From Nocardia wallacei (GTDB lineage: Bacteria; Actinomycetota; Actinomycetes; Mycobacteriales; Mycobacteriaceae): a stretch of DNA of 64,000 nucleotides. Positions 20,426 through 61,344 of this stretch are shown here, piece after piece; within the stretch, counting starts at the first letter, position 1; every line of letters starts with the position of its first letter. Where the stretch lies: NCBI RefSeq assembly GCF_014466955.1, contig NZ_AP023396.1:2108001-2172000 (forward strand), in the 5' to 3' direction. The position numbers and the translations under genes were made by a program. Under the pieces are notes generated by a model. The model did no database searches. It had not been told where the DNA came from and worked only from the letters and a program-made list of their open reading frames with translations.

Positions 20426-20872
20426 TCAGTGGTTGTGCAGCGTCGCCGCCAACAGGCGCGAGGCGGTGACGACCCCGATCAGTTCGGCGTCCTTCATGAC
20501 CGCGACCAGTGGGCTGCGGTACTGCGACATGGTGGCCGCGACCTCGATGATGGTGTCGTCGGCTGCGGCCGCGGGCACCTTGATCAACCGTTCGGGAATG
20601 ACGTCGCGGACCTTCTTGCCCCGAAGCTTCGTCACCATCCGGTCGCAGGTCGATTCGTCGATCACCCCGGCCAGCGATGGATCGTCCTGCACATACCGCG
20701 GTACGAGGAACCGCACGACCTGCGAGGCCGGTAGCACCGCCTCCGGCCGCCCGTCGGCCGTGGTGACCAGGATGCCGGGCAGCCGGTGCTCGGCCAGCAG
20801 CCGGGCGGCGTCCAGCGCGTCGGTGTCCATGGTGACCACCGGATATTCCTCGGCCATCTGCGATGCGTGCAC
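20426..20872 (-). CDS. CBS-domain pair protein
   Basis: A 148-residue protein made of two CBS domains (residues ~8-62 and ~90-145; [26 protein letters not shown] and [22 protein letters not shown]). CBS pairs bind adenine nucleotides and gate transporters or enzymes. It precedes the permease gene on the same strand, so a regulatory subunit role is likely, by inference. Confidence 0.88.
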
Positions 20873-45837: not shown

Positions 45838-46629
45838 TCAGTACGCAATCCGCGGCCTCCGGCGCAGCAGTGCGGCCGGTGTGCTGCCGCGGCGGCGCAG
45901 CCTGCGGATGCCCAGGATCACCGCGAGCACGGCGACGATGCCGCCGACCACCGGGGCAACCACCTGGTGACCCACCTCGGCGCCGGACAGCTCGGTGCCG
46001 AACACGTACTCCGGCACGGGCGTCGCGTAGTTCTGGCGACGGGAGTTGAGATCGACGGCGGTCGTGGCGACGCTCGCGAGGACCTCGCACCGGGTCTTGT
46101 CGAGTGGCTCGGAATGGTTGCCGCAGGCCGCGTACATGCGGTGTTCGAGGGCGGCGTCGACGGCCTGCCGCGCCCACGGGCCGAGCGGCTGATGCTCGCG
46201 TTCGGCGTAGCGGAGCAGATCGTAGCCGAGGTCGTGGGCTTTGCACGCCGTCTCGAAATCGGGTGGCAGCGGGATGGGGGAGGAACAGCCGCCGCTCGGG
46301 TCGATCAGCAATCCTTCCGCTACTACGGGTCGATAGCCCTGCTGGGCCGGGAAGTCGTCGGGGATCGCCGCCTCCCAGGGACGGTCGCCGGTCAGCTCGG
46401 TAACCGCGGTCCGCGCCGCCGCGCTCTCGGGGGCGGGGTGCGAGATGGCCGCGGCGGCCGCCGGGGCGAACGCAACGGTCGACCCCGCCACCATCGCGAC
46501 CACACCCGCGGCTCCCGCCATCCGCCGTAGCCGTCCGGAGCTGCCGGGCGGTGCGCCCGCATCCCGCGAATTCGACGAGCCGGCGATCGACTCGGCGCGG
46601 GATGGGTGGTCCTGCGTTGCATCGCTCAT
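45838..46629 (-). CDS. Phospholipase A2-like secreted/membrane-anchored protein
   Basis: A 263-residue protein. A hydrophobic signal/anchor lies at residues ~37-62, and a second transmembrane helix near the C-terminus (~222-242) followed by an Arg-rich tail. The central domain has CKAHDLGYDLLR with His132-Asp133, the catalytic pair pattern of prokaryotic phospholipase A2, and additional Cys (GGCSSP, YAACGN, TRCEVL) for disulfides. Predicted to act outside the membrane on phospholipids; activity is inferred. Lies upstream of the membrane hydrolase, same strand, 233 bases apart. Confidence 0.72.
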   Translation of the reverse strand: MSDATQDHPSRAESIAGSSNSRDAGAPPGSSGRLRRMAGAAGVVAMVAGSTVAFAPAAAAAISHPAPESAAARTAVTELTGDRPWEAAIPDDFPAQQGYRPVVAEGLLIDPSGGCSSPIPLPPDFETACKAHDLGYDLLRYAEREHQPLGPWARQAVDAALEHRMYAACGNHSEPLDKTRCEVLASVATTAVDLNSRRQNYATPVPEYVFGTELSGAEVGHQVVAPVVGGIVAVLAVILGIRRLRRRGSTPAALLRRRPRIAY

Positions 46630-46782
46630 GACAGCCTAGGTTATGGACCGGCACCTCACCCGTCCTCACGCCGGGGATAGATTCCGCGGCCGCAGCCGCG
46701 GGGGACACCGGCGGGCGGCTCGTACCGGGGTAGGGGGTGTGAATTCACCCGGGGGTATGACGACGCAGGTCGAGCGGATTTC

Positions 46783-46795: not shown

Positions 46796-48091
46796 ATGGC
46801 TCGGATGGCGCGGATGGCGCGGCTTGTGACTGGGACGGCACGCGACCCACAACGGATGCGGCTCGCCTTCGACGGGTTCACCGCGTTGGTCACCGCGATC
46901 CTGTTCGCCGTGGCGTGGCCGACGCTGCACGTCACCCATCAGGTGCCCGCGGCGGCGCAGCCGTTCATCGCGGGACTGGCGGCCGTGCCGTTCGCGCTCG
47001 TGCGGGTGAATCCGGCTCTCGGCTGGGCGATTTCGGCGGCTTCCGCACTGGTGATCGCGATGGCCATTCCCAACCAGCCGGGCGATACGCTGCCGTTCCA
47101 GGTCGTGCACATCCTGGTGTTCTTCTCGCTGCTGTTCGCGGTGGCGGTGCGGGCGCAGATGCAGATCGTCGCGGTGGCGTGGTTGTTCTCGTCGCTGCTG
47201 TTCGCGACCAGCATGGCCCGCACCGGTGATGCGGCGTTCGGTTGGCCCATCGCCATGTCGGGGCTGGTGGTGTTCGGTCTGCTGGTGCGCTGGCTGGCAC
47301 TCTCGCGCCGGGCGCTGGTGCGGCAGGAAGAGGAGAACGAACTCGAACGTGCCCGCCGGGCGATTCTCGAGGAGAAGGCCCGCATCGCCCGCGACCTGCA
47401 CGACGTGGTCGCCCACCACATGTCGATGGTGGTGGTGCAGGCACAGACGGCGCCCTACCGGGTCGCCGACGTGTCTCCCGCGGCGCAAGCGGAGTTCGCC
47501 TCCATCGGCGCCTCCGCGCGCGAGGCGCTCAACGAGATCCGCAGCATGCTCGGTGTCCTGCGCAGCGACGGACAGTTGCCCGAGCACGCACCCCAACCCG
47601 CGGCCGCCGACGTGCTGGCCGTGCTGGACGGCGCCCGCCGGGCCGGTGTGTCGATCGAGTGGGCCATCGACGGTGAATTGGCGACCATCCCCGACACCAC
47701 AGGGCTCGCGCTCTACCGGATCGTGCAGGAATCGCTGTCCAATGCCTCGCGCCATGCGTCGGGCTCGGCCGTGCGGGTCGCGATCAGCGTCCGCCCGGGC
47801 GCGGCGGAGGTCGTCGTCACCAACGGCCCGGGAACGAGCGTGGCGAGCGGCACCTCCGGCACCGGCGTCGCGGGTATGCAGGCCCGCGCCGAGGCTATCG
47901 GCGGGGCCCTCACCGCCGGCCCGCGCCCGGACGGCGGTTTCGAGGTGCGTGCGGTACTGCCCTTCGGCACCGACGCGATCGCCCCCGCACCCGCCCAACC
48001 CGAGACTCCCGCCCTCGATTCCCCGACTCCCGCACCCGATTCCCCCACTCCCGCCCTCGAACCGTCCGCCGCCCCGACCGACCGGGCGTGA
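46796..48091 (+). CDS. Sensor histidine kinase, NarL/DesK type (cassette 1)
   Basis: A 431-residue kinase with about four to five transmembrane segments (residues ~30-165) and little extracellular loop. HisKA_3 dimerisation domain with the phospho-acceptor His202 in RDLHDVVAHHMS; HATPase region with ESLSNASRH and GTGVAGMQAR. The C-terminal ~35 residues are a Pro/Thr/Ser tail with repeats of DSPTPA. The start MARMARMARL is fixed by the -10 seven bases upstream. First of the plus-strand HK-RR-STPK cassette. Confidence 0.9.
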   Translation: MARMARMARLVTGTARDPQRMRLAFDGFTALVTAILFAVAWPTLHVTHQVPAAAQPFIAGLAAVPFALVRVNPALGWAISAASALVIAMAIPNQPGDTLPFQVVHILVFFSLLFAVAVRAQMQIVAVAWLFSSLLFATSMARTGDAAFGWPIAMSGLVVFGLLVRWLALSRRALVRQEEENELERARRAILEEKARIARDLHDVVAHHMSMVVVQAQTAPYRVADVSPAAQAEFASIGASAREALNEIRSMLGVLRSDGQLPEHAPQPAAADVLAVLDGARRAGVSIEWAIDGELATIPDTTGLALYRIVQESLSNASRHASGSAVRVAISVRPGAAEVVVTNGPGTSVASGTSGTGVAGMQARAEAIGGALTAGPRPDGGFEVRAVLPFGTDAIAPAPAQPETPALDSPTPAPDSPTPALEPSAAPTDRA

Positions 48092-48111
48092 CGTCAGGTC
48101 GCGCCCGATTC

Positions 48112-48255
48112 TGTGGTCGTGTCGTGGTTGGGCCCGTTCCTGTGGTCGTGTAGTGGTCGCGTCCGTTCCTGTGGTCGTGTAGTGGTCGCGTCCGTTCCTG
48201 TGGTCGTGTGGTGATCGCGCCCGATTCTGTGGTGGTGTGGTGGTCGTATCGATCC
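48112..48255. repeat. 29-bp tandem repeat array between the histidine kinase and response regulator
   Basis: Unit TGTGGTCGTGTAGTGGTCGC plus GTCCGTTCC. Copies at 48112-48140, 48141-48169, 48170-48198 and 48199-48227, with a partial fifth to about 48255 and a half copy before 48112. Copies 2 and 3 are identical. The unit is not a multiple of three and there are no spacers. Confidence 0.9.
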
Positions 48256-48375
48256 CGCGGCCGTGCGGTTCGTCCGAGGGGCCTGCCGGTGCGGTGGTTC
48301 GGTGCGCCGCGTGCGAAACTCGTTGCGATGTCCATCCGTCTTGCGGCGATCGCCCTATAGCTGAGGTCTCGTCAC

Positions 48376-49035
48376 GTGCCGATTACCGTGTTGATCGCCG
48401 ACGATCAGGCGATGGTGCGGCAGGGCTTCGGCGCCCTGCTCGCCGCCCAGTCCGATATCAGCGTCATCGGTGACGCGGCCGACGGCAAGGTCGCCGTCGA
48501 AGAGGCCAAACGGCTACGCCCCGACGTCGTGCTGATGGACGTGCGCATGCCGGAGATGAACGGCCTCGACGCCGCGCGGGCGATCCTGGCCGCGAATTTC
48601 GATCCGCCCATCCGGGTGCTCATGCTGACCACCTTCGACATCGACGACTACGTCTACGAGGCGCTGAGCCTGGGCGCCAGCGGATTCCTGCTCAAGGACG
48701 CGCCCGCCGAGGAACTGGTGCGCGCCGTGCGGGTGGTCGCGGACGGCCAGGCGCTGCTGGCCCCGACGGTGACCCGGCGGCTCATCGCCGACGTCACCCG
48801 CCGCCGCGCCCGGCCCAAGCCGACACCCGCGCTCGACGCCCTCACCCCGCGCGAACGCGAGGTGCTGGAACTCATCGCGAAGGGCATGTCCAACACCGAG
48901 ATCGCCGAGGCGCTGTTCGTCGCCGAGCAGACCGTGAAAACCCATGTGTCCAAGGTGTTCTCGAAGCTGGAGCTGCGTGACCGCGCGCAGGCGGTCGTGC
49001 TGGCCTACGAGTCCGGCCTGGTCACCCCCGGCTGA
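48376..49035 (+). CDS. NarL/LuxR-type response regulator (cassette 1)
   Basis: A 219-residue regulator: receiver domain with VLIADDQ, phospho-acceptor Asp55 in VVLMDVRMP and Lys in GFLLKDAP; LuxR HTH at ~150-215 (LTPREREVLELIAKGMSNTEIAEALFVAEQTVKTHVSKVF). GTG start; GAGG about nine bases upstream. Partner of the upstream kinase despite the 284-base gap filled by the 29-bp array. The STPK gene follows after 49 bases. Confidence 0.93.
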   Translation: MPITVLIADDQAMVRQGFGALLAAQSDISVIGDAADGKVAVEEAKRLRPDVVLMDVRMPEMNGLDAARAILAANFDPPIRVLMLTTFDIDDYVYEALSLGASGFLLKDAPAEELVRAVRVVADGQALLAPTVTRRLIADVTRRRARPKPTPALDALTPREREVLELIAKGMSNTEIAEALFVAEQTVKTHVSKVFSKLELRDRAQAVVLAYESGLVTPG

Positions 49036-49084
49036 CGGGGCAGGTAGGATCCCGGCTCGTACCTCGCAGGAAGGGGATCGCCAG

Positions 49085-50869
49085 GTGTACAGCAGCGGTG
49101 ACGTGTTCGCCGGGTTCTCCATCGAGCGCCTCCTCGGCCAGGGCGGGATGGGGTCGGTGTACCTCGCGCGCCACCCGCGCCTGCAGCGCCTCACGGCCCT
49201 GAAGCTGCTGAACCGGGAACTGTTCGCCGACGCCGAGATTCGCGCGCGGTTCGAACGCGAGGCCGATCTGGCCGCGCAGCTGGACCACCCGAACATCGTC
49301 GCCGTCTACGACCGCGGCGTCGAGGACGAGCAGCTGTGGATCAGCATGCAGTACGTCGACGGCGTGGACGCGGCCACCGTGCACCCGCACTCGCTCCCGC
49401 CGGAGCGCGCGGTGCAGATCATCGAGGGCGTCGCCGCCGCGCTCGACTATGCGCACGGCAACGGCGTACTGCATCGGGACGTGAAGCCCGCCAACATCAT
49501 GCTGGCCCGCTCCGGCGGCGGCAAGGGCGAGCGGGTGTTCCTGACCGACTTCGGTATCGCGCGGCTGCGCGAGGATTCCCAGCACCTCACCCAGGCCGGG
49601 ATGTTCACCGCCACCCTCGCCTACGCGTCCCCCGAGCAGATGACCGGCGCCGAACTGGATCACGGGTCGGACCAGTACTCCCTGGCCTGCGCGCTGTATT
49701 GGCTGCTCACCGCGACCGGCCCGTTCGATTCCGAGGATCCCGGCGAGGTGATCCACGGGCATCTGCAACTGCCGGTGCCGCCCGCCAGCATGCGCCGGAT
49801 CGGGCTGTCGCCCGCCATGGACGTGGTGATAGCCAAGGCGATGGCCAAGCGTCCGCGCGAAAGGTTCGCCAGCTGTAGCGAATTCGCGGCCGCCGCCCGG
49901 CACGCGCTGACCGCTCCGGCCCCCGTCGGGCCGACGACGGGCCAGCTCCCCGCGGTGGGCACGCCGCTCGCGGCGGCGAGTCCGCCTGCCCCGCAGGCAT
50001 ATCCGGCGTCCGTGCCGGTAGGTGCGCCGCTCGAGGCGGCGGCGGGCGCGGTGGCGCCGGGAGCCGCCGTTCCGCCGCTCGTCGCCGCGGGCCTTCGGCC
50101 CGGCATGCCCGTGCCCGCGCCGGGTGGTCCCGCCGCGCCGCCCGCGACCGCGACCCCGGCGCCGGCCGCACCCGGATTCGGCCCGCACCCGGCGCCCTAT
50201 CCGCCGTCCCGGCGCTCGTCCGGCGTGCTGGGCTGGCTCATACTCGTGGTGGTGCTGCTGGTCGCGGCGCTGGCGGTGGTCATCGGCGTCGTCGCCTCCG
50301 GTGACGACGACGCGGACACGGACGGTTTCGACACCACCACACCGCCGCGGATCTCCGACCCGGTGCAAGGTCTGCAGGCGATGCACGCCGCCTTCCCGCG
50401 ACTGGTGCCCGACCTACCGGCCGGTGACAGCGCCGGTAACGGCATCGGCTTCGGCGGCAAGGTGTGTTACGCGACCAGGGCGGGACATCCCTTGGTCCAG
50501 CACAACGAGGGCCAGCCGCTGCTGGGCAACTGGATCGCCGCGTGGGACTGCTGGGCGGGTGACGACGAGCAACCGGACTACGCGCTGCTCGCCTACGGTT
50601 CGCCCGCGGACGTGTACACCGTCCTCGCGCGCCTGCCCCCCAACCGGAAACTGGTGGAGCACAACAGCGGCAGCCCGTACACCAACCACCGCTGGAACAC
50701 CCCCGAAGATCAGCCGCGCACCACCTACTACGTGACAACGTCGTTCGAGAACGACGCCGAGCGCTCGCACTACCTGCTGTTCTGCAGCGACGACTACTGG
50801 CCGTCGACGCCACGCGGCTTGTCCGCCGCCGCCTTCGCCGAGTGGTGGAAGTCCTTGCCCCTCAGGTGA
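49085..50869 (+). CDS. Ser/Thr protein kinase with extracellular C-terminal domain (cassette 1)
   Basis: A 594-residue Pkn-type kinase. Kinase domain ~8-270: glycine loop GQGGMG, Lys40, HRD at 130-132, DFG at 155-157 and APE region as ASPEQM. An Ala/Pro-rich linker (~275-375), one transmembrane helix (~382-402) and a ~190-residue external domain with several Cys (GGKVCYAT, AWDCWAG, LLFCSDD) follow. The external fold is not a PASTA domain and I do not recognise it. GTG start at 49085; the longer frame starts inside the response regulator. Confidence 0.92.
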   Translation: MYSSGDVFAGFSIERLLGQGGMGSVYLARHPRLQRLTALKLLNRELFADAEIRARFEREADLAAQLDHPNIVAVYDRGVEDEQLWISMQYVDGVDAATVHPHSLPPERAVQIIEGVAAALDYAHGNGVLHRDVKPANIMLARSGGGKGERVFLTDFGIARLREDSQHLTQAGMFTATLAYASPEQMTGAELDHGSDQYSLACALYWLLTATGPFDSEDPGEVIHGHLQLPVPPASMRRIGLSPAMDVVIAKAMAKRPRERFASCSEFAAAARHALTAPAPVGPTTGQLPAVGTPLAAASPPAPQAYPASVPVGAPLEAAAGAVAPGAAVPPLVAAGLRPGMPVPAPGGPAAPPATATPAPAAPGFGPHPAPYPPSRRSSGVLGWLILVVVLLVAALAVVIGVVASGDDDADTDGFDTTTPPRISDPVQGLQAMHAAFPRLVPDLPAGDSAGNGIGFGGKVCYATRAGHPLVQHNEGQPLLGNWIAAWDCWAGDDEQPDYALLAYGSPADVYTVLARLPPNRKLVEHNSGSPYTNHRWNTPEDQPRTTYYVTTSFENDAERSHYLLFCSDDYWPSTPRGLSAAAFAEWWKSLPLR

Positions 50870-50914
50870 TTCACAGCCCCTCAGGCGATTCGCAGCCCCT
50901 CAGGTGATTCGCAG
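50858..50914. repeat. 19-bp tandem repeat spanning the stop of the first STPK gene
   Basis: Three copies of CCCCTCAGGTGATTCGCAG-like sequence at 50858-50876, 50877-50895 and 50896-50914. The TGA stop of the kinase lies in the first copy. Confidence 0.85.
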
Positions 50915-50920
50915 CCCCGG

Positions 50921-51097
50921 TCACGGGGCCGCGCGTTCGTCGAGGACCATGTGCCCGGCATCGACGAGGATCTGCCTGGCGCGGCGGCGCACCCGGCAAT
51001 CATCGACGGTGCAGCACCTGTGGATCTGCATCGCTTCGTGCGCTCGATCGGGTGTCAGCGGACCGGGATCCACAGTGCAGTCGAAGAGGAACATCAT
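50921..51097 (-). CDS. Small Cys-containing protein of unknown function
   Basis: A 58-residue product starting MMFLFDCTVDPGPL, with IHRCCTVDDCRV in the middle and a C-terminal helix (RRARQILVDAGHMVLDERAAP). The four Cys and the amphipathic end look protein-like, and I have an impression of similar short actinobacterial proteins, but I cannot name a family. No strong ribosome binding site. A competing plus-strand frame (50904-51179) looks less protein-like. Confidence 0.45.
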   Translation of the reverse strand: MMFLFDCTVDPGPLTPDRAHEAMQIHRCCTVDDCRVRRRARQILVDAGHMVLDERAAP

Positions 51098-51206
51098 GGT
51101 GGCTACCAGCGTTCTTCGCGGAAAGTCCGGGCGGGGATACGACCCCGGTAAGCGTATCCAGGTTCGGGGCACCGCGTGAGCGGTACGGGGTACCCGGAGA
51201 CGACGC

Positions 51207-52238
51207 TCAGCCGAAGAACGCCGCCGCTTCCTCGTGCCGGTCGGCCGGCACCAGCTTCAGCTGCTTGGTCGCCTCCGCCAGCGGCACCAGTTCGATCTGG
51301 GTGCCCTGCAGCGCCACCATCTGCCCGAACTGCCCGTCGTGCACGGCCTCGGTGGCGTGCACCCCGAACCTGGTCGCCAGCACCCGGTCGAACGCCGTCG
51401 GTTTGCCGCCGCGCTGCACGTGCCCGAGCACCGTGGTGCGCACCTCCTTGCCGATGCGGCGCTCGATCTCGACGCCCAGCTGATGCGCGACGCCGGTGAA
51501 GCGCTCGTGGCCGTATTCGTCGACGCCGCCCTCACGCAGGTGGAACGAACCCTCCGTCGGCTTGGCGCCCTCGGCCACCACACAGATGAAATGCGAATCA
51601 CCGCGCTGGAAGCGGCGTTTGATCATCGTGCACACCTCGTCCACGTCGAAGGGCACCTCGGGGACCAGGGTGAGGTGCGCGCCGGAGGCGATGCCGGAAT
51701 TCATGGCGATCCATCCGGCGTGCCGGCCCATCACCTCCACCAGCATCACGCGCTGATGCGATTCGGCGGTGGTGTGCAGCCGGTCGATGGCGTCGGTGGC
51801 GATGGTGATCGCGGTGTCGTGGCCGAAGGTGGTGTCGGTGCAGTCGATGTCGTTGTCGATGGTCTTGGGCACGCCCACCACCGGGACGCCCTCGTCGGCG
51901 AGCCAGCTGGCGGCGGTCAGGGTGCCCTCGCCGCCGATCGGGATGAGCGCCTCGATGCCGTTGTCGTCGAGGGTCTGTCTGATCCGGCCCAGGCCGGCGC
52001 GCAGCACGTCGGGGTTGGTGCGCGCGGTGCCGAGCATGGTGCCGCCCTTGGTGAGCAGCCGGTCGGTGCGGTCGTCGTTCTGGATCTGGATCTTGCGATC
52101 CTCGAGTAGGCCGCGCCAACCGTCCTGGAAACCGACGATCGCGTCGCCGTAGCGGCCGTTCGCGGTGCGAACGACTGCCCGGATGACCGCGTTCAAGCCT
52201 GGGCAGTCCCCGCCTCCGGTCAAGACTCCGATGCGCAT
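51207..52238 (-). CDS. pfkA: 6-phosphofructokinase
   Basis: A 343-residue PfkA ([20 protein letters not shown]). The nucleotide site has GGEGT, with Gly at the position equivalent to E. coli 104 as in ATP-dependent enzymes, while the catalytic block is PKTIDND with Lys where E. coli has Gly124, a mix typical of actinobacterial group III enzymes. It commits fructose-6-phosphate to glycolysis. In mycobacteria pfkA lies between gatA and gatB; here it is within the signalling block, 67 bases downstream of the lipoprotein genes. Confidence 0.95.
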
Positions 52239-52305
52239 GCCAGCTATCTTGCCGGGCGCACCGCGGCAGCGCAGCCCCGGCCCCGTGAACCCTCGGTAAC
52301 AGTGC

Positions 52306-53283
52306 TCAGCGCGTGACGGGGCACTGCCCGGCGGGCAGTTCCCCGAGGTGCTTGCCGACCAGGGCGCCCAGCTTGCTGAGGATCTGGGTACCGTCCTCGA
52401 ATCCGCCCGAATTGGATTGCGCCGCAAGGGCGATGGCCATCTGCCCGGACGGCGTGGTCACCAGCCCGAACTGGCGGACCAGATAGCTGCCGCTCGGGTC
52501 CGGACCCCAGCCGCCCTTGTACTGGGCGTTGTCCAGCCGCCCGATGCCCCACTGCTGGCCCCACACCACCTTGCCCATCAGCCCGACGACGGTGTCGGCG
52601 TCGGGCAGGCAGGGGAGCCGGGAGGCGAATCGCACCTGGTCGGCCAGGGACCACTCGGCCTGGCCGAAGGCGGAGTACTCCGCGCGGCGGCGGGTCGCGG
52701 GCACCTCGGTGGTAGTGTCGCCGCCCTCGCGCAGGACCGCCTCCACGGCCTGCGCCGCCTTGTCCGGCGCGCCCAGCGACTGCCACAGTCCGTCAGCGGC
52801 GCTGTTGTCGGATTCGGTGATGGCCGCCGACATCTGGGACGTGCCGGTATTGCCGTTGGCGCGCAGCACCGCCAGCGTCAGCGGCACCTTCATCGTCGAC
52901 CAGGCCGGGCCGGAGGTCCAGTCGCCCATGGACGTCAACCGGTCGCTACCGACGGCCATCAGCGCGATACCGGCGTGGCCGCCCAGGGACGGTTGCACGT
53001 CCTTGAAGTCGGCGGCCAGCGTGCCGGGCAGGGCCACCATCGCGCCGACGGTGGCGTTGGCCGGGCGCGTCACCGTGGTGAGCGGGTCGGTGTCGGTGGG
53101 GGCGGAACAGGCGGCGGCGCCGAGGACCAGCGCGCCGCACAGTACCGCGGTCAGCCGCCGGATCGCTCCGGTGCGCGGCCGTATTCGCTCGGTTTTCGTC
53201 GCTCCTGCACCGAAAAAGCCTGGCTGTGGGCATTTTTCGGCCCGCCCGGAACGGCCGCCCGGACGCCCGTGTGCTGCGTCCAC
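52306..53283 (-). CDS. Class A beta-lactamase-like lipoprotein (copy 2)
   Basis: A 325-residue exported protein. Signal peptide at ~41-58 ending LGAAAC, probable lipidation at Cys59, after an unusually long 40-residue N-terminus; GGAGGTG six bases before the GTG at 53283 still supports this start. Motifs of a penicillin-recognising serine hydrolase: SxxK at 129-132 (STMK), SDN at 158-160 and KGG at 256-258. Close paralogue of the next gene upstream. It may be a true beta-lactamase or a peptidoglycan-recognising relative; the omega-loop Glu is not obvious. Confidence 0.82.
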
Positions 53284-53411
53284 CGGTTCACCTCCACCAT
53301 CACGGGGCGGCCCGCCAACCGGACACCCGTCAGTCGAGGCATTGTGTGCTTTCCGGGCGCAGCGGTCAAATGCCGCAACTCACGGTGGCACATCTGCGAC
53401 GGCCGCCGCGC

Positions 53412-54353
53412 TCACCTCCGGCACTCGCCGCCGCCCAACTCGCGGATGTGTTTTGCCAGCAGAGCGGCCATCTTGTCGAGCATCGCGGTGCCGTCGTCGA
53501 ACGTGCCCGAATCCGGCTGTGCGGCAAAGGCCACCGCGAGCTGGCCGGACCAGGTGGGGATGAGTCCGAACTGGCGGACCAGGTACGCGCCCGTCTCGTC
53601 GTCGGGACCCCAGCCGCCCTTGTACTCGGCGCCGACGAAGGCGCCCAGGCCCCAGGACTGGCTGGAGGTGATCTCGCTCATCAGATCCACCACCCGCGCC
53701 GCCTGGGGCAGACACGGCAGGCGGCTGGCGAAGCGCACCTGGTTGAGCAGCGTCCACACGGTCGCGCCGAAGGCCAGCGGGTCGTCGACCGTCTCGCGCG
53801 CCTCCGGATTGTGCCGGTCGGCGACATCGGTTGTGGTGTCCCCGGTTTCGCGCAGCACCGCCTCCACCGCGTCGGCCGCGCGATCGCCGCCGCCGATGGC
53901 GTCCCACAGCTGCTGGGCCGCCTCGTTGTCGGACGCGGTGATTGCCGCCGATGCCGTGTCGAGCAGACCCTCCGGATCGTTGCGCAAGGCCACCAGCGCC
54001 AGCGGGACCTTGATGGTCGACCAGGCGATGCCGGTGGTCCAGTTGCCCAGGGTGATCACGCGGTCGCCGCCGACCGGCATCACGGCCAGGCCCATGGTGC
54101 CCGGCAATTCGGCTTGCAGCGCGGCGAATTCGTTGGCCAGCGAGTTCGGGACGGCGAGATCGTCACCGACGCGATGCGGTGCGGGCTGCTGCTGCGCCTC
54201 GTTCACGGTCGGGGCCGCGATCACGACCGGCTCGTCGGCCACCGGAAGCGGAGCACCGGCGTGCGCCGTGCACGCCGCGATCGTCGCCGTCGACACCACC
54301 AGCAGCGCCCATCGAAAACCTTTGCGCCGGAAACACTTCACCTCAGTAGACAT
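53412..54353 (-). CDS. Class A beta-lactamase-like lipoprotein (copy 1)
   Basis: A 313-residue lipoprotein: signal peptide with lipobox IAAC, lipidated Cys28; SxxK at 112-115 (STIK), SDN at 141-143, KGG at 245-247. Shares with copy 2 the blocks [37 protein letters not shown] and KGGWGPD, so they arose by tandem duplication. The ATG at 54353 lies inside the end of the upstream STPK gene (11-base overlap), which ties it to that kinase. Predicted outer face of the membrane. Confidence 0.85.
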   Translation of the reverse strand: MSTEVKCFRRKGFRWALLVVSTATIAACTAHAGAPLPVADEPVVIAAPTVNEAQQQPAPHRVGDDLAVPNSLANEFAALQAELPGTMGLAVMPVGGDRVITLGNWTTGIAWSTIKVPLALVALRNDPEGLLDTASAAITASDNEAAQQLWDAIGGGDRAADAVEAVLRETGDTTTDVADRHNPEARETVDDPLAFGATVWTLLNQVRFASRLPCLPQAARVVDLMSEITSSQSWGLGAFVGAEYKGGWGPDDETGAYLVRQFGLIPTWSGQLAVAFAAQPDSGTFDDGTAMLDKMAALLAKHIRELGGGECRR

Positions 54354-57300
54354 ACACCACCGCGTTCTCGCCACCGGTACAGGTGATGATCCGGCCCGAC
54401 GGCGAGCAGTTCATCGTGTACGACCGGCCGGTGACCGGACTGACAGCGACCACGGAGGTCGGTGTGCCGGAACCGGTCTCCGCCTCCTCGGCGTAGGCCG
54501 CGCGCACCGCCTCGGCGAACGCGCACGACGTGACCGAGGTGCCCGTCGCCGATTTCGTGTACTTGCCCTGCGAGCGGGTCGCGCCCTGGCACTCGGTGGC
54601 GCCGGCGGGCACGGCCGCGGTGGTGGTCGCGGTGGACGTGCCGCTGCTCGACGCCGTCCGCGGAGGCGGCTGGGAGACCGGGACATTCGAGTCGGTCGGG
54701 CCGGAAGCCACCGACGGAGCGGTGCTGCCCGGCTTGCTCACGAACCGCCAGCCGACCACGGCCGCCACCGCCGCGAACGCCACCGCCAGCACGCAGAGCA
54801 CGATCGGCAGCACGATGGAACGTCTGCGCGAGCCGCCGTACCCGTCGTCGTGCTCGGGCGCGGCCCGGTCGGGGTCGGGCCGGCCGCCGAAGGCGTAGTC
54901 GTATTCCTCGTACTCGTCGCCGTATGCCTGGGGGTGCCGGTAGTTGTCGTCCGGGTGGCGGTAGTTGGCATCCGATCGGGTGTACGCGGACTGTGCGTAG
55001 TTGCCGGGGTACTCGTCGTCGGGGAGGGGGTAGTTGTCGCCGGGCCGGGCGTAGTCGGCCTCGGTGCGGGCATAGGGATCGTCGGTGTCGGCGTAGGCGC
55101 CCCCGGGTGCCCGGTAGTCGGATTCGGTTCGGCCGTAGGCGTCCTCGGCTCCGGCGCGGTCGGCCGCGGACCTGCGATAAGGATCGCTGAGTTCCGGGCG
55201 TTCGGCCGCTCCAGCGTAGGCGTCGTCGGATTCGGCGTACGGGTTGCTGCTCCGGGGGTATTCGTCGTCGGGTCCGGGGTAGTCGGCCTTGGTCCGGGGG
55301 TACGTGTCGTCGGAGCCTGGGTAGTCCGCCTTGCTCCGGGCGTAGGTCTCCTCGGGATCGTTGGGTGCCTTGGTTCGGGGGAAGTCATCCTCGGGATCGG
55401 AGTAAGCCGCTGGCCGGAGGTAAGGGTCGTCGGATCCGGTGTCGAAATCGTCCGGCCGGGCGTAATGATCTTCGGAGCCGCGGCCGCTGGATTCGGGCCG
55501 GAGGTAAGTGTCGTGGGGTCCGGCGTGGATGTCGGGCTGGTGGTAGGTGTCGTCGGGTCCCGCGTAGGTGTCGCGCCGGGGGTAGGTGTCGCCGGGACCG
55601 GGTTTGGTGTCGGGCTCGGGGTAGGCGTCGTCGCGTCCCGCGTGGGTGTCGATGCGCCGGGTGTAGTCGTTTTCTGTTGCGGTGTAGCCGCTGTGGTTGT
55701 CGGGTTCGTGTAGTGGGTAGGCGCTCGGGGGCTCGACGTATTCGCCGGGGCTGGGGTTGTCTGCGGCGGGATGAGTGGAATTCCCGGCCAACGGGGTGAA
55801 CTGGAATTCGTCGGGGCGCACCAGCGTCGGGTCCGTCGGCCGGATCACCGGGAGGTCGCCGGAGGTGTCGCGGTCACGATCCGGGTCGGCGGGCGGGATG
55901 ATCCGCAGCGACCCCGTGGTCGGAAACCCGGTGGCGGGACGGCGCGCGGCATCCTCGCCGGGGCGTGAGCGCCGTTGTGTGCCAGCGGCTTCGGTGCCCG
56001 GGGGAGTACCGGGCCGCCGCTGCGGCAGACCGGTCGCGGATCCCGCCGTTCCGGTTCGCATCACGGTGGTGGGTTGCGTGGCAGGCGGTTCGCTCTCGGG
56101 AGTCGCGACCGGGCCGCGCGGTGGGAAGCGGGCGGGAATGGTCGGGCCCTCCGGCCCGAACGGCTGGAACAGATTCGGTTCCCGAGCCGCTGCGGCGGGC
56201 TCGTTCCCTACCCCTTGCGAGGCCCGCGGGTCTCCGGCGCTGCCGATCGGGTCTCCGGCTTCGGAGCCGGGCCGCCGTCCGGCAGCAAGATCGGCCAGAC
56301 TTCCGGCAGAAACGTCGGATGGTGCTCCGGCAGCAGTGGGGGATGGGCCTCCGGCCGGGGTGTGGGATGGGGTTTCGCCAGGGTGGGGCGGAGTCTCAGC
56401 AGGCGTGCGAGATGAGGCTCCGGCACGAGTGGGGGATTGGCCTCCGGCAGAAGTGAGGGACGGGGCTTCGCCAGAGGTGTGGGACGGGGCCTCAGCAGGC
56501 GTGCGGGAAGGGCCTCCGGCAGAAGTGTGAGATGGGGCTCCGCCAAGGGCGTGGGATGGGCTGGCAGGAGGGTAGGGGCGGCTTCCGGGTGCGGAGTCGA
56601 GCGGGCTTTCGGCGGGGTTTCGGGGGGAGCTTGCGGCGGCAGGGTGGGAGGGGCTTGCGGCGTCGGCGCGGGGGGAGGCCGGGGGCTCGGCTGGGGCACG
56701 GTCGAGACTGAATGGGCGTGGGCGTTGCGGATTCCCGGGTGGTTGCGCGCCGACCCGCGAGGATGTGTTCTCGGTATCGGATCCGGGGCCGTGTCCGACC
56801 ACGTACCGGCCTCGGGGCGGATTCGGGTCGGCGGGCGGAAAATGCTGTACCGCCTCCGATTCGGCGGGCGTGCGGACGGAATCATCGAATGCGCCTGCGG
56901 CGGTGGAGAATTCGCCGGTGCTCGCCGCGTAGCGATCGGACGCGTAGTCGTCCTCGGCCTGGTGGCTCGTGTCCTCGGCGAACATGTCCGGCCCGTCGTA
57001 GCCGGGGGTCGGAATGCTCCCGGTATCCACCGGGGTGTGGCCGTATCCCACCGACAGCCCGAATGCCGCGCGGGCGGCGCCCGCGAACTCGCCTGCGGTG
57101 GCGTAGCGATCGTCCGGCGCCTTCGCCATCGCGTGCGCGATCACCGCGTCCAGTGCGGGCGGGACGTCCGAGCGTTGCAGGCTGGGCCGCGGCGGCGGAT
57201 CGGACAGGTGGGCGCGGATCAGGGCGCTCACGTTCTTCGACGGATACGGCGGTGCGCCCGTGAGGCATTCGTGCAGCACACACGCCAGAGAGTAGATATC

Positions 57301-57939
57301 GGCACGGCCGGTGACCGGGCCGACATCGAACCGTTCCGGCGCCATATAGGTATAGGTCGCGGCGGCGGTGCCCACCAGCGTCACACTGCTGTCGCCCTCG
57401 CTGCGGGAGATACCGAAATCCGAGAGATACGCGAAATCCGATGCGGTGACGAGGATATTGGCGGGTTTGACATCGCGGTGCACCAGGCCCGCGCTATGCG
57501 CGGCGTCGAGAGCGGCCGCGACCTGCTCGACCAGAGCGACGGCACGGTCCGGGTCCATCGGACTGTGCCGGCGCAGCAGCGTGCGCAGGTTGTCGCCGCG
57601 CACCAGCCGCATGTCGATGTAGAGGACGCCGTTGATCTCGCCCCAGTTGTGAATCGGAATGACGTGTGGTTCCGACAAACCGGCCGTGGCCTGTGATTCG
57701 CGGCGAAACCGGGCCTGGTACGCGGGATCCTCCGCCAGTGCTCTCGGCAGCAGCTTCAGCGCGACGACCCGGTCCCTGTTGGTGTCGTAGGCCTCGTAGA
57801 CCTCGCCCATGCCGCCTCTGCCCAGCAGCGAGCGCAGCTCGTACGGGCCGAATCTGTCGCCGGCCCGCGACCGCGGTGCGTCCACCGGTGCAACCTCCAC
57901 ATCCTGGGCAGGGTGCGAAACCCGTGCCCGGTGTGCCAC
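54343..57939 (-). CDS. Giant Ser/Thr protein kinase with Tyr-rich repeat linker (cassette 2)
   Basis: A 1198-residue kinase, about twice the usual length. Kinase domain ~33-290: GRGGMG loop, Lys62, HRD 154-156, DFG 174-176. Then a long disordered linker with Pro/Ser/Thr-rich degenerate repeats of the PSHTPAGG kind (~450-550) and a Tyr/Asp/Pro-rich array (~745-1010; units like DDTYPRTKADYPG of ~13-15 residues). A transmembrane helix (~1040-1062) and a ~135-residue external domain with four Cys follow (ATECQG, TSCAFAEAV, MNCSPS, ITCTGG). GTG start, 18 bases after the response regulator stop. Confidence 0.9.
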   Translation of the reverse strand: MAHRARVSHPAQDVEVAPVDAPRSRAGDRFGPYELRSLLGRGGMGEVYEAYDTNRDRVVALKLLPRALAEDPAYQARFRRESQATAGLSEPHVIPIHNWGEINGVLYIDMRLVRGDNLRTLLRRHSPMDPDRAVALVEQVAAALDAAHSAGLVHRDVKPANILVTASDFAYLSDFGISRSEGDSSVTLVGTAAATYTYMAPERFDVGPVTGRADIYSLACVLHECLTGAPPYPSKNVSALIRAHLSDPPPRPSLQRSDVPPALDAVIAHAMAKAPDDRYATAGEFAGAARAAFGLSVGYGHTPVDTGSIPTPGYDGPDMFAEDTSHQAEDDYASDRYAASTGEFSTAAGAFDDSVRTPAESEAVQHFPPADPNPPRGRYVVGHGPGSDTENTSSRVGAQPPGNPQRPRPFSLDRAPAEPPASPRADAASPSHPAAASSPRNPAESPLDSAPGSRPYPPASPSHALGGAPSHTSAGGPSRTPAEAPSHTSGEAPSLTSAGGQSPTRAGASSRTPAETPPHPGETPSHTPAGGPSPTAAGAPSDVSAGSLADLAAGRRPGSEAGDPIGSAGDPRASQGVGNEPAAAAREPNLFQPFGPEGPTIPARFPPRGPVATPESEPPATQPTTVMRTGTAGSATGLPQRRPGTPPGTEAAGTQRRSRPGEDAARRPATGFPTTGSLRIIPPADPDRDRDTSGDLPVIRPTDPTLVRPDEFQFTPLAGNSTHPAADNPSPGEYVEPPSAYPLHEPDNHSGYTATENDYTRRIDTHAGRDDAYPEPDTKPGPGDTYPRRDTYAGPDDTYHQPDIHAGPHDTYLRPESSGRGSEDHYARPDDFDTGSDDPYLRPAAYSDPEDDFPRTKAPNDPEETYARSKADYPGSDDTYPRTKADYPGPDDEYPRSSNPYAESDDAYAGAAERPELSDPYRRSAADRAGAEDAYGRTESDYRAPGGAYADTDDPYARTEADYARPGDNYPLPDDEYPGNYAQSAYTRSDANYRHPDDNYRHPQAYGDEYEEYDYAFGGRPDPDRAAPEHDDGYGGSRRRSIVLPIVLCVLAVAFAAVAAVVGWRFVSKPGSTAPSVASGPTDSNVPVSQPPPRTASSSGTSTATTTAAVPAGATECQGATRSQGKYTKSATGTSVTSCAFAEAVRAAYAEEAETGSGTPTSVVAVSPVTGRSYTMNCSPSGRIITCTGGENAVVYVY

Positions 57940-57957
57940 CGGGGTTGTGCCTGCCCC

Positions 57958-58671
57958 TCAGACTGCCGATTCTCCGGGTGCGACCACGCCGTGGTCAAAC
58001 GCGTACACGATAGCGGCGGCCCGATCCCTTAACCCGAGCTTGCCGAAAATGTGCCCTACGTGGCTCTTTACGGTCACCTCCGAGATACCGAGCTCGTCTG
58101 CGATTTCGGAGTTGACCTGACCGCGACCTATCAGCCGGAGCACCTCGAACTCGCGAGCGGTCAACTCGGCGAGGCGGTTCTGCGCTTTCGCCGGGGCGGG
58201 ACGCACCGATCGATACGCCGAGAGCACGCGACCGGTGACCGACGGGTCGAGCCAGGACCCGCCCGCGGCGACCGTGCGGACCGCGCGGATGAGGTCTTCG
58301 GCGGGGGAGTCCTTCAGCAGGAACCCGGCCGCGCCCGCCCGCAGTGCGCCCGACAGTAGCTGCTCGTCGTCGAAGGTGGTGAGCACCAGGACCGGGGGCG
58401 CGCCCTCGCGGGCGCGGAGCAGGCGGGTGGCGTCGATGCCGCCGACCCGTTTCATTCGCAGATCCATCAGCACCACGTCGGGGCGCTGGGCTGCCACCGC
58501 CGAGGGCACCTCGTCGCCGTCGGAGCATTCGGTGACGGCGAAGCCGTCGCGGCGGCGCAGGATGCGGCGCAGTCCGCCGCGCACCAGTTCCTGATCGTCG
58601 ACGACGAGGACCGTGATGGTGTCGGCCTCCGCCTCCACCGCGCTGCCCGCGGTATCCGCTCCCGTTGTCAC
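57958..58671 (-). CDS. NarL/LuxR-type response regulator (cassette 2)
   Basis: A 237-residue regulator. VLVVDDQ, phospho-acceptor Asp70 in VVLMDLRM, Lys in GFLLKDSP; LuxR HTH at ~175-230 (LTAREFEVLRLIGRGQVNSEIADELGISEVTVKSHVGHIF). The GTG overlaps the kinase stop as GTGA. The very long open frame reaching 60453 is a shadow of the kinase gene. Likely binds the inverted repeat at 60102-60119. Confidence 0.93.
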   Translation of the reverse strand: MTTGADTAGSAVEAEADTITVLVVDDQELVRGGLRRILRRRDGFAVTECSDGDEVPSAVAAQRPDVVLMDLRMKRVGGIDATRLLRAREGAPPVLVLTTFDDEQLLSGALRAGAAGFLLKDSPAEDLIRAVRTVAAGGSWLDPSVTGRVLSAYRSVRPAPAKAQNRLAELTAREFEVLRLIGRGQVNSEIADELGISEVTVKSHVGHIFGKLGLRDRAAAIVYAFDHGVVAPGESAV

Positions 58672-60044
58672 GTGCCCTCCTGCATTTTCCTGGTCATCGA
58701 AACGAAGGCATCGCGCACCACCCGCAGCGGATCCTCCGTGCCGGTGACCACGCAACCGCCCGTCGGCTTGCCGGCCCCGAGCGGGATGTGGGCGCGCACC
58801 TGCCAGGTGTTGCCGTCGTGCGGGCCCGCGGTCAGCGAGCCGCCCAGCAGGGTGGCTCGCTGGCGCATGCCGGAGATGCCCATGCCGCCGCCGCGATGCA
58901 CGGTCCAGCCGGGCAGGGTGTTGATCACCGTGGCTGTCACCGCTGCCTCCGTCACCTCGATGCGGAGGACTACCTCCGCGCCGGGCGCGTGTTTCGCGAC
59001 ATTGGCCAGCGACTCCTGGCTGATCCGGTACAGCGCCAGGCCCGTGGTCGCCGAGACCGCGGCGGTGTCGCCGGTGATCGTGCAGTCGACCGGAAGGCCC
59101 GCGCGCACGAAATCCGTTACCAGACCGTCGATGTCGTCGAGCCCCGGCTCGGGTGTGCTGCTGGACGGGCGCTGATCGAGCAGGCCGACCGTGCGGCGGA
59201 TGTCGGACATGGCCTGGCGGCCGAGGCGTTCGGCGTCGGTGAGCGCGTCCACCGCCTCGTCCACGTCGCGGTCGGTCTGCAGAGCGTGGCGGGCGGCGGT
59301 CAGGTGCAGCATGGTGACGCTGAGCGAGTGCGCGATCACGTCGTGCACCTCCCGGGCGATGCGGCGGCGCTCCTCGTCGGCGGCGCGGATCGCGCGGATC
59401 TCCTGATTCTCCCTCTCCTGGTAGAGGAATCGGCGCTGGAACTGCAGCATCAGTCCGACCATCCAGCCCAGTACGACGCCGACCAGATACATCGGCAGCC
59501 CGCCGTCCACATTGCCCATCGCGGCGAAGACGACGAGTTGGAGCATGGCGGCGAGGGTGGCCGCGATGCTTATCTTCTTCGGGGCGATGGCCGCGACCTC
59601 GCCCACGACCACCGTCAGCACCAGAGGCGCGCAGTCGGGGGATACCGGCTGCGCCAGGAAGATCGCCGCGGCCGTCATGGCCGATCCGGCCAGTACGACG
59701 GGGTGCGGCTCCAGGTCGAACAGGAAGATGATCGGGTAGCACAACACCAGGATCGCCACCGCGACGAACGGCAGCGTCGTGGCGAAGTAGTCGTGACGTA
59801 GCGCGGCCGCGGCGATCGCGGTGATGATCATCGCGCCGTCGGCGGTGTAGACGACCGAGGCCGGGTAATCGTAGCTGCTGTCCTCGATTTTGCGACGGAC
59901 CGAATTCACCGGGTCGTGCAGGAATTCGCGGAACCGGGCGCTGATCCGGCCGGACAGCCGCGCCTGGGCGGCGGTACCGGTCGGCCCGGTCTCGCCTTGC
60001 CCGGGGGCCCTGTCGCCCCGCCCGGTGGCGTCGGTCACAGCCAT
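58668..60044 (-). CDS. Sensor histidine kinase, NarL/DesK type (cassette 2)
   Basis: A 458-residue kinase with about six transmembrane segments (residues ~70-200) and no large extracellular domain. HisKA_3 with phospho-acceptor His234 in REVHDVIAHSLS; HATPase region with ESLANVAKHA and GMGISGMRQRA. A ~25-residue C-terminal tail follows. First gene of the minus-strand series HK-RR-STPK-lipoprotein-lipoprotein-pfkA; divergent from the MacB-type exporter. Confidence 0.92.
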   Translation of the reverse strand: MAVTDATGRGDRAPGQGETGPTGTAAQARLSGRISARFREFLHDPVNSVRRKIEDSSYDYPASVVYTADGAMIITAIAAAALRHDYFATTLPFVAVAILVLCYPIIFLFDLEPHPVVLAGSAMTAAAIFLAQPVSPDCAPLVLTVVVGEVAAIAPKKISIAATLAAMLQLVVFAAMGNVDGGLPMYLVGVVLGWMVGLMLQFQRRFLYQERENQEIRAIRAADEERRRIAREVHDVIAHSLSVTMLHLTAARHALQTDRDVDEAVDALTDAERLGRQAMSDIRRTVGLLDQRPSSSTPEPGLDDIDGLVTDFVRAGLPVDCTITGDTAAVSATTGLALYRISQESLANVAKHAPGAEVVLRIEVTEAAVTATVINTLPGWTVHRGGGMGISGMRQRATLLGGSLTAGPHDGNTWQVRAHIPLGAGKPTGGCVVTGTEDPLRVVRDAFVSMTRKMQEGT

Positions 60045-60101: not shown

Positions 60102-60119
60102 CTCCTACCACGGTAGGAG
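60102..60119. promoter_or_regulatory. Perfect inverted repeat CTCCTACC-AC-GGTAGGAG
   Basis: Eight-base arms, two-base centre, in the 183-base region between the divergent histidine kinase and the small-protein/ABC exporter genes. Best candidate site for the NarL-type regulator of cassette 2. Confidence 0.6.
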
Positions 60120-60548: not shown

Positions 60549-60621
60549 TCCGGCACCGACAGCCAGCAGCATGCCGGCGTGCGTAGCACCGCGCCGAAGT
60601 ACGACAGAGAGGGCGACCGCC

Positions 60622-61344
60622 GTGTTGGAACTGACCGATGTCACCAAGGAGTATCTGGTCGGAAAGCAGCAGGTGCGTGCGTTGGACGGCGTGAGCCTGC
60701 GCATCGAGGCAGGTGAGTTCACCGCGATAATCGGCCCGTCCGGCTCCGGCAAGAGCACCCTGCTGCACCTGCTGGGCGCGCTGGATACGCCCAGCTCGGG
60801 CTCGATCCGGTTCCGCGGTGAGGAGATCGGCACACTGGACGACAACCGCCAGTCCGAATTCCGGCGTCATCGCGTGGGTTTCGTGTTCCAGTTCTTCAAC
60901 CTGCTGCCGACGATGTCGGCGTGGGAGAACGTCGCGATCCCGAAACTGCTCGACGGCACCGGGTTACGCCGCGCCAGGCCACGCGCGCTGGAGCTGTTGG
61001 ATCTGGTCGGCCTCGGTGACCGCGCCGAGCACCGCCCGGCCGAGCTGTCCGGCGGCCAGATGCAGCGCGTGGCCGTGGCCAGGGCGCTGATCATGGACCC
61101 GCCGTTGATCCTGGCCGACGAGCCCACGGGCAACCTGGATTCCAAGACCGGCGCGGCGATCCTCGAACTGCTCGGCGAGATCACCGGCACCGGCAATTCG
61201 GTCGTGATGGTGACTCACGACATGGGCGCTGTGCAGTACTGCGACCGGGTGGTCACGCTGCGCGACGGCCGAATCGGCTCGAACGACAAGGTCGAGCGCG
61301 GGCACGCGAGCGTCGCCGAGATCGAGAAGGCGGTGCGCGCGTGA
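60622..61344 (+). CDS. ABC transporter ATP-binding protein, MacB/LolD type
   Basis: A 240-residue ATPase: Walker [11 protein letters not shown]-loop [10 protein letters not shown], signature [15 protein letters not shown], Walker [13 protein letters not shown], switch His in VTHDM. The NLDS after Walker B is typical of the MacB/LolD group, which works with FtsX-like permeases in mechanotransmission or export. GTG start; overlaps the permease gene as GTGA. Confidence 0.94.

Follow-up and report, generated by a model that had tools for sequence, protein, structure and literature searches.

The window, a 64,000-nt stretch of Nocardia wallacei DNA (NZ_AP023396.1, positions 2,108,001 to 2,172,000 of the forward strand), contains two cassettes in which the genes for a sensor histidine kinase (HK), a NarL-type response regulator (RR) and a membrane Ser/Thr protein kinase (STPK) follow one another. 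The first-pass annotation had read this order from the plus strand (46796-50869) and again from the minus strand (60044-54343), and both the reading frames and the domains agree with it (Table 1). The short gaps it had noted between RR stop and STPK start are also confirmed, at 49 nt in cassette 1 and 18 nt in cassette 2. Each of the two-component systems (TCSs), HK1-RR1 and HK2-RR2, has a HisKA_3 and HATPase_c kinase adjoining a receiver and GerE regulator, and both pairs score above the Pfam cut-offs. The spacing between HK1 and RR1 is 284 nt, much of which is taken up by about five copies of a 29-bp repeat, and RR2 is read as starting at a GTG, which gives it a 4-nt overlap with the HK2 stop. 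STPK1 and STPK2 are Hanks-type kinases (PF00069 scores of 139 and 142 bits) in which GxGGMGxVY, HRDVKPAN and DFG are seen by eye; judged in the same way, the catalytic motifs of all six signalling proteins look intact. Beyond STPK2 the minus-strand run continues with two beta-lactamase-like (BL) genes, BLb and BLa, and then pfkA, which is codirectional with cassette 2.

Table 1. Features of the two-cassette locus, in window coordinates.
Feature	Position	Strand	Basis or remark
PLA2-like secreted/membrane protein (working name, read from sequence)	45838..46629	-	Open reading frame (ORF); divergent from HK1
Operator-like palindrome CTCGTACC-GG-GGTAGGGG	46719..46736	.	59 nt ahead of HK1 ATG
HK1, HisKA_3 sensor histidine kinase	46796..48091	+	PF07730, PF02518 (HisKA_3, HATPase_c)
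29-bp tandem repeat, HK1-RR1 gap	48097..48246	+	Tandem Repeats Finder (TRF)
RR1, NarL-type response regulator, VraR-like	48376..49035	+	PF00072, PF00196 (Response_reg, GerE)
STPK1, membrane Ser/Thr kinase with ectodomain, 594 aa	49085..50869	+	PF00069
pfkA (start inferred)	51207..52238	-	Name from sequence
BLa, beta-lactamase-like protein	52306..53283	-	PF13354, 24.8 bits vs cut-off 22; STMK/SDN/KGG
BLb, beta-lactamase-like protein (ATG probably 54353)	53412..54374	-	PF13354, 28.7 bits; STIK/SDN/KGG; overlaps STPK2 end
STPK2, membrane Ser/Thr kinase, 1198 aa, long repetitive linker, small 4-Cys ectodomain	54343..57939	-	PF00069
RR2, NarL-type response regulator	57958..58671	-	PF00072, PF00196
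HK2, HisKA_3 sensor histidine kinase	58668..60044	-	PF07730, PF02518
Palindrome CTCCTACC-AC-GGTAGGAG	60102..60119	.	57 nt upstream of HK2
ABC exporter ATPase (start inferred)	60604..61344	+	PF00005; divergent from HK2; LolD/MacB-like but under NCBIfam cut-offs
FtsX/MacB-type ABC permease	61341..63833	+	PF02687, PF12704

The two loci were mapped with the window proteins in 36 Nocardia genomes, this one and 35 of the same genus. HK1 and HK2 both occur in 35 of the 36; G015, which is 78% complete, has neither. A survey of HK-RR-STPK triplets, as the first-pass annotation had proposed, found the synteny kept across these 35 genomes, in which HK2 is 53-70% identical to that of the window. STPK2 lies directly behind RR2 in all 35, and STPK1 lies behind RR1 in 31 of the 32 genomes with that side visible (G004, G026 and G035 are broken there by contig ends). 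The spacings were taken from match starts, not start codons, for all but the last six loci. From the RR2 stop to the kinase match there are 2-86 nt in every Nocardia genome measured except at L114 (G008), where there are two STPK2 copies and the measurement fell on the second. This second STPK2-like kinase gene follows BLa and is probably a tandem duplicate. The distance from the RR1 stop is 50-150 nt, or about 1.1 kb where BLb intervenes. The description of the cassettes as converging holds for the window and 10 other genomes (11 in all); it does not extend to the 17 in which HK1-RR1-STPK1 is followed by HK2-RR2-STPK2 on one strand, nor to the seven in which the cassettes are split over contigs.

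A scan of named genomes with STPK1 ranks Nocardia first among the best 80 loci, with N. mexicana at 71% identity. An RR1-type gene stands ahead of the STPK1-type gene on the same strand at 15 of these 80 loci, all of them from Nocardia, with or without BLb in between. The remaining loci are paralogs, other genera or cut loci, and the genomes scanned may partly be the same as those in the 36-genome set. A locus labelled as a metagenome-assembled genome of Mycobacterium sp. (L244) has, on one strand, genes for a kinase resembling STPK1 (209 bits) and for a regulator with a weak match to RR1 (63 bits).

The 7.9 Mb genome has 36 Pkinase, 13 HisKA_3 and 40 receiver matches. All 34 Pkinase places beyond the window were fetched with their flanks and probed with RR1 and RR2; none of them lies codirectionally behind a regulator found by these probes, and two (L008 and L022) are convergent with one. 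With about 7,000 genes assumed and even odds that two neighbours are codirectional, about 0.1 codirectional RR-STPK pairs would be expected per genome by chance. A stronger argument than this estimate for a real RR-STPK association is the conservation across the genus. Judged by gene order and relationship, the genus-wide and twice-recruited association of TCS and STPK is real.

The surroundings of the two TCSs are different outside Nocardia. A search with RR1 matched 100 of 151 family genomes, 90 of them outside the genus, and 34 of the 90 loci were fetched, representing 20 genera. No STPK was mapped in the fetched stretch at any of the 34, and a pfkA-family gene lies at most 600 nt downstream of RR1 on the same strand at 28. 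Eight of these 28 pfkA-family genes score near 320 bits, not at least 570, and perhaps encode a different phosphofructokinase. Since no STPK was mapped at the 34 loci and pfkA directly follows RR1 at 28, this comparison indicates that Nocardia carries an insertion between RR1 and pfkA. The orientation of pfkA suggests that the tandem order is ancestral, in which case the convergent order would be an inversion of the cassette-2 block. A relative of the PLA2-like gene is divergent from HK1 at most of the Nocardia loci with that side fetched and at 20 loci of other genera. HK2 is present in 47 of the 151 family genomes and 14 of 31 genera, the own genus counted; across the order, with a stricter cut-off, it was found in 22 of 249 genomes. 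A recognised STPK was found at none of the 22 RR2 loci outside Nocardia, and the full divergent exporter is present at two of them (L161 and L162).

STPK2 has a hydrophobic segment at residues ~1042-1061, and its ectodomain gives a predicted model with a mean predicted local distance difference test (pLDDT) of 86.5. Those complete orthologs of other Nocardia whose length was measured have about 580-935 aa and are shorter than the window protein, the cytoplasmic linker of which (window 54847-56677) is full of short tandem repeats. An ectodomain profile built from 27 Nocardia sequences matches 41 of 81 family genomes and 18 of 31 genera. At 18 of the 20 such loci fetched outside Nocardia a BL gene lies directly downstream; L268 and L271 are without one. 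Ten of the 18 have a recognised kinase domain (L257-L261, L264, L265, L273, L274 and L276, in genera g37, g41, g38, g32 and g30), and HK2-RR2 was found in the fetched stretch near none of the ten. Because these ten pairs in five other genera stand without a neighbouring HK2-RR2, the STPK2-BL pair is, on its distribution, older than the Nocardia cassette. The STPK2-ectodomain proteins at L262, L263 and L275 are 488-578 aa long and match no Pfam domain, with a BL gene downstream. In genus g23 (L166 and L266, from G060 and G090) HK2-RR2 is directly preceded by a gene for the STPK2 ectodomain without a kinase domain and by a BL gene.

The BLa and BLb proteins form two groups in a FastTree phylogeny, each across several Nocardia genomes, and the BLb copies that intervene between RR1 and STPK1 fall together with those located behind STPK2. 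The class A motifs STxK and SDN are present in all 43 BL sequences longer than 200 aa (of 44) and the KGG columns are invariant; at L125 the motif scan missed KGG because SEYK overlaps it. The PF13354 scores of BLa and BLb are weak (Table 1), and both fall below the NCBIfam class A model NF033103 (31.5 and 25.5 bits vs 200). In a weak alignment BLb has Asn at the first Glu of the ETELN stretch of 3lez, which we take to be Glu166 of class A enzymes, and no Glu is present at 90% or more in the omega-loop stretch of the BL sequences. As far as this weak alignment goes, Glu166 seems to be absent in the BL proteins. Their motifs would fit a sensor role. STPK2 and the BL lipoprotein might then be the halves of a split receptor for the cell wall or for beta-lactams, present in several genera of the family; the lipoprotein would recognise penicillin outside and the Ser/Thr receptor kinase would read it inside. 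In Nocardia this receptor would be wired into an autoregulated TCS operon as a four-part sensor (HK, RR, STPK and lipoprotein). This is a speculative extension and rather doubtful in its full form.

The upstream regions provide a possible link between the systems. The 18-bp palindrome CTCCTACC-NN-GGTAGGAG has one exact copy in the genome, which is the site before HK2. Its near copies are two at 2 mismatches, one of them the site before HK1, and 9 more at 3. A site with at most 3 mismatches is present upstream of HK2 at 33 of 35 Nocardia loci and at 17 of 23 in another set, made up of the 22 other-genus loci and a second Nocardia HK2 (L134); such a site turns up in 0.1% of single-base shuffles. 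Upstream of HK1 the palindrome is found in Nocardia at 13 of 35 loci with at most 3 mismatches and at 22 of 35 with at most 4 (shuffles 0.2% and 1.6%), and outside the genus at 1 and 6 of 33. The HK1 promoters outside the genus fit a related palindrome, CTCATACC-NN-GGTATGAG, better (24 vs 2 of 33), which is partly built in because this pattern was drawn from the same promoters. Of the HK1 promoters listed, 17 from Nocardia contain the right half-site GGTAGG, and none from outside the genus does. A shared operator, or a convergence of the two regulons, is suggested by these sites, and the HK2 palindrome fits autoregulation of an operon which includes STPK2. The same 18-bp near-palindrome, with 3 mismatches to the HK2 operator, is seen in opposite orientation at window 20690-20707 and at G000:C1:4601969-4601986.

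STPK1 has a hydrophobic segment at residues ~385-404 followed by an ectodomain, for which the predicted model has a pLDDT of 89.3. Its closest own paralog, at L016 (5430-12017), has behind it an ABC exporter that is related to the HK2-adjacent one. Further STPK1-like kinases with such an exporter nearby are seen in named Nocardia (L194, L206, L207, L209, L210, L215 and L240).

Most likely, the TCSs and STPKs are expressed together and sense the envelope in parallel, and STPK2 reads the BL lipoprotein. The whole would probably be a composite envelope-signalling locus of Nocardia, in which an old HK1-RR1 system carries an insertion holding STPK1 and HK2-RR2-STPK2-BL. The comparison of loci shows that HK1-RR1, elsewhere usually followed directly by pfkA, has before pfkA both STPK1 and a second old system. 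This system, HK2-RR2 with its divergent ABC exporter, is joined there to the STPK2-BL pair, and the block occurs in two orientations. HK2-RR2-STPK2-BLb-BLa may be one predicted operon, autoregulated by RR2 through CTCCTACC-NN-GGTAGGAG, and since RR2 would regulate the operon, the TCS would determine how much STPK2 and how much of its lipoprotein partner are made. In parallel with HK2, STPK2 would act as a receptor kinase: the BL lipoprotein, which might sense peptidoglycan or beta-lactams, would have its state read by the small STPK2 ectodomain. A second receptor kinase in this block could, with less support, be STPK1, whose co-transcription with RR1 would be confined to some species. This explanation allows for phosphorylation of the RRs by the STPKs and does not require it.

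Several observations weigh against this explanation. The linkage of RR1 and STPK1 is loose: nothing was mapped between them in 19 of the 31 genomes, and an antisense BLb lies there in the other 12. In G006, HK1-RR1 is on contig C34 and the STPK1-like gene (485 bits, 70%) is on C1 with the cassette-2 block; no STPK was mapped near this HK1-RR1 in two overlapping fetched stretches (L126 and L312). The STPK1 ORF stops 2-5 residues past the transmembrane segment in six genomes (L098, L102-L105 and L109), where the ectodomain is missing or encoded elsewhere. A reversed control pattern gives 58 genomic sites at 3 or fewer mismatches vs 12 for the palindrome; therefore, only the exact and 2-mismatch genomic sites carry weight. 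The HK1 palindromes of Nocardia are also divided, with the RR2 type and the RR1 type each the better fit in 11 of 35, and the BL proteins may possibly be hydrolases. The first-pass annotation had inferred that each STPK is a dedicated third component which phosphorylates its kinase or regulator, or is expressed with it. The triplets are real, and since they are kept across Nocardia, expression with the TCS is plausible, most strongly for STPK2. The strict form of a dedicated third component is weighed against by the antisense BLb and the split G006 locus in the case of STPK1 and, in the case of STPK2, by the apparently older partnership with the BL lipoprotein.

An inverted duplication of one ancestral HK-RR-STPK cassette had been proposed together with repeated recruitment as the origin of the repeated unit, and only the second proposal stands. 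Duplication is favored by HK1 and HK2 being mutual best matches among the own HisKA_3 loci fetched; however, RR1 is matched better by four other own regulators (L027, L026, L029 and L035) than by RR2, and the tandem order in 17 genomes also speaks against it. In a kinase-domain tree of 39 rows, which comprised own kinases with a match longer than 200 aa and the STPK1 and STPK2 of the window and 7 other Nocardia genomes (4 of 43 were dropped as divergent or partial own paralogs, and own kinases whose match was shorter were not part of the set), L016 is the own paralog that clusters with the STPK1 orthologs (99/95), and L014 and L012 cluster with those of STPK2 (98/95). Forcing STPK1 and STPK2 together costs 86 log units and is rejected by the approximately unbiased (AU) test (p-AU 4.7e-59). 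Since they belong to different kinase clades, the tree shows the two STPKs to have been recruited separately. The HK tree of 37 rows included 6 of the 11 other own HisKA_3 kinases, which are long branches. HK1 and HK2 each cluster with orthologs from other genera and families of the order, and a single Nocardia HK1+HK2 clade is rejected (p-AU 1.4e-102), which places the divergence of HK1 and HK2 before the genus. The duplication is already contradicted and is hardly credible. It is also improbable that the STPKs simply hitchhiked, arriving with the insertion and having no functional tie to the TCSs. The missing STPK1 at the G006 RR1 locus, its loose spacing elsewhere and the older BL partner of STPK2 would agree with hitchhiking; however, RR2-STPK2 is kept in 35 of 35 genomes through rearrangements and at the HK2 identities given above, and g23 has a second arrangement in which HK2-RR2 is linked to genes for the STPK2 ectodomain and BL.

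The remaining alternative is that these are true three-component systems, in which each STPK phosphorylates the neighbouring RR (or HK) on Ser/Thr and thereby tunes DNA binding, as in Stk1-VraR, PknH-DosR and PrkC-WalR. This appears unlikely on present comparisons, and has more in its favor than hitchhiking. Adjacency of RR and STPK holds across the genus, and the nearest solved structure to RR1 is VraR (173.5 bits), given as an Stk1 substrate in PMC4601284. In the EmbR-PknH system the regulator gene directly upstream of a membrane STPK encodes its in vitro substrate, according to PMC9239209. A review (PMC13355554) says that StpK7 phosphorylates MSMEG_1198, a regulator of its own gene island, and this is a precedent for the three-component arrangement. 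Ser/Thr positions were compared between 30 Nocardia and 22 outside sequences for RR1, and between 32 and 21 for RR2. The RR2 C-terminal tail PG[EQ]S has an invariant Ser in 32/32 Nocardia vs Ser/Thr in 4/21 outside, and this Ser is the only residue fixed in the genus and rare outside. The RR2 of L166 (g23) ends in PGES, as the Nocardia RR2 does. RR1 Ser192 is fixed in 30/30 Nocardia and present in 9/22 outside, and RR1 has no Ser/Thr that combines conservation in the genus with a presence below 30% outside it. With the site numbers given in PMC4601284, only T178 of VraR T106, T119, T175 and T178 has a Thr counterpart in RR1, T186, a residue shared by all 52 RR1 sequences of the comparison; opposite DosR T198/T205, RR1 has Ala/Tyr. 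The residue comparison neither supports nor excludes phosphorylation. HK1-RR1 and HK2-RR2 without a linked STPK at the other-genus loci examined, and the frequent separation of STPK1 from RR1, argue against it.

Co-expression of TCS and STPK in a composite locus is, from the comparative evidence, better supported than phosphorylation of the RR by the STPK. Signalling by Ser/Thr kinases and signalling of the histidine-aspartate type are commonly regarded as distinct networks, connected by crosstalk. Across Nocardia the two are genomically linked, twice and by separate recruitment. The locus is thus a defined place to tell a transcriptional link, in which the TCS sets the STPK level, from an enzymatic one, in which the RR is modified by the STPK. 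The pairing of STPK2 with the lipoprotein also points to a candidate partner protein for this receptor kinase.

Several known systems share parts of this arrangement. EmbR-PknH of Mycobacterium tuberculosis differs in that EmbR is a Streptomyces antibiotic regulatory protein (SARP)-type regulator without a receiver, and the excerpt of PMC9239209 mentions no HK, BL or exporter for it. In VraR-Stk1, DosR-PknH and WalR-PrkC an STPK acts on response regulators, as the three-component alternative would have it here, and VraR is listed as NarL-type (PMC4601284 and PMC4478028). DosR aligns with RR1, and the known target residues of VraR and DosR are mostly not conserved in RR1. The genes for Stk1, PknH and PrkC are not known to be linked to the genes of the TCSs they act on. 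StpK7 (MSMEG_1200) is the best NCBIfam match of the STPK2 kinase domain; its model NF052427 scores 380 bits with STPK2 and 224 bits with STPK1, both below the 900-bit equivalog cut-off. No HK-RR pair was found beside six mapped StpK7 orthologs with RR and HK probes, which would miss other regulator types. A split lipoprotein-kinase receptor would be comparable in logic to BlaR1. The envelope-stress TCSs of the VraSR/LiaSR type have a HisKA_3 HK and a NarL-type RR with an envelope-type ABC exporter nearby. The Nocardia cassettes share the HK, the RR and the adjoining exporter with this type, and add STPK genes to it.

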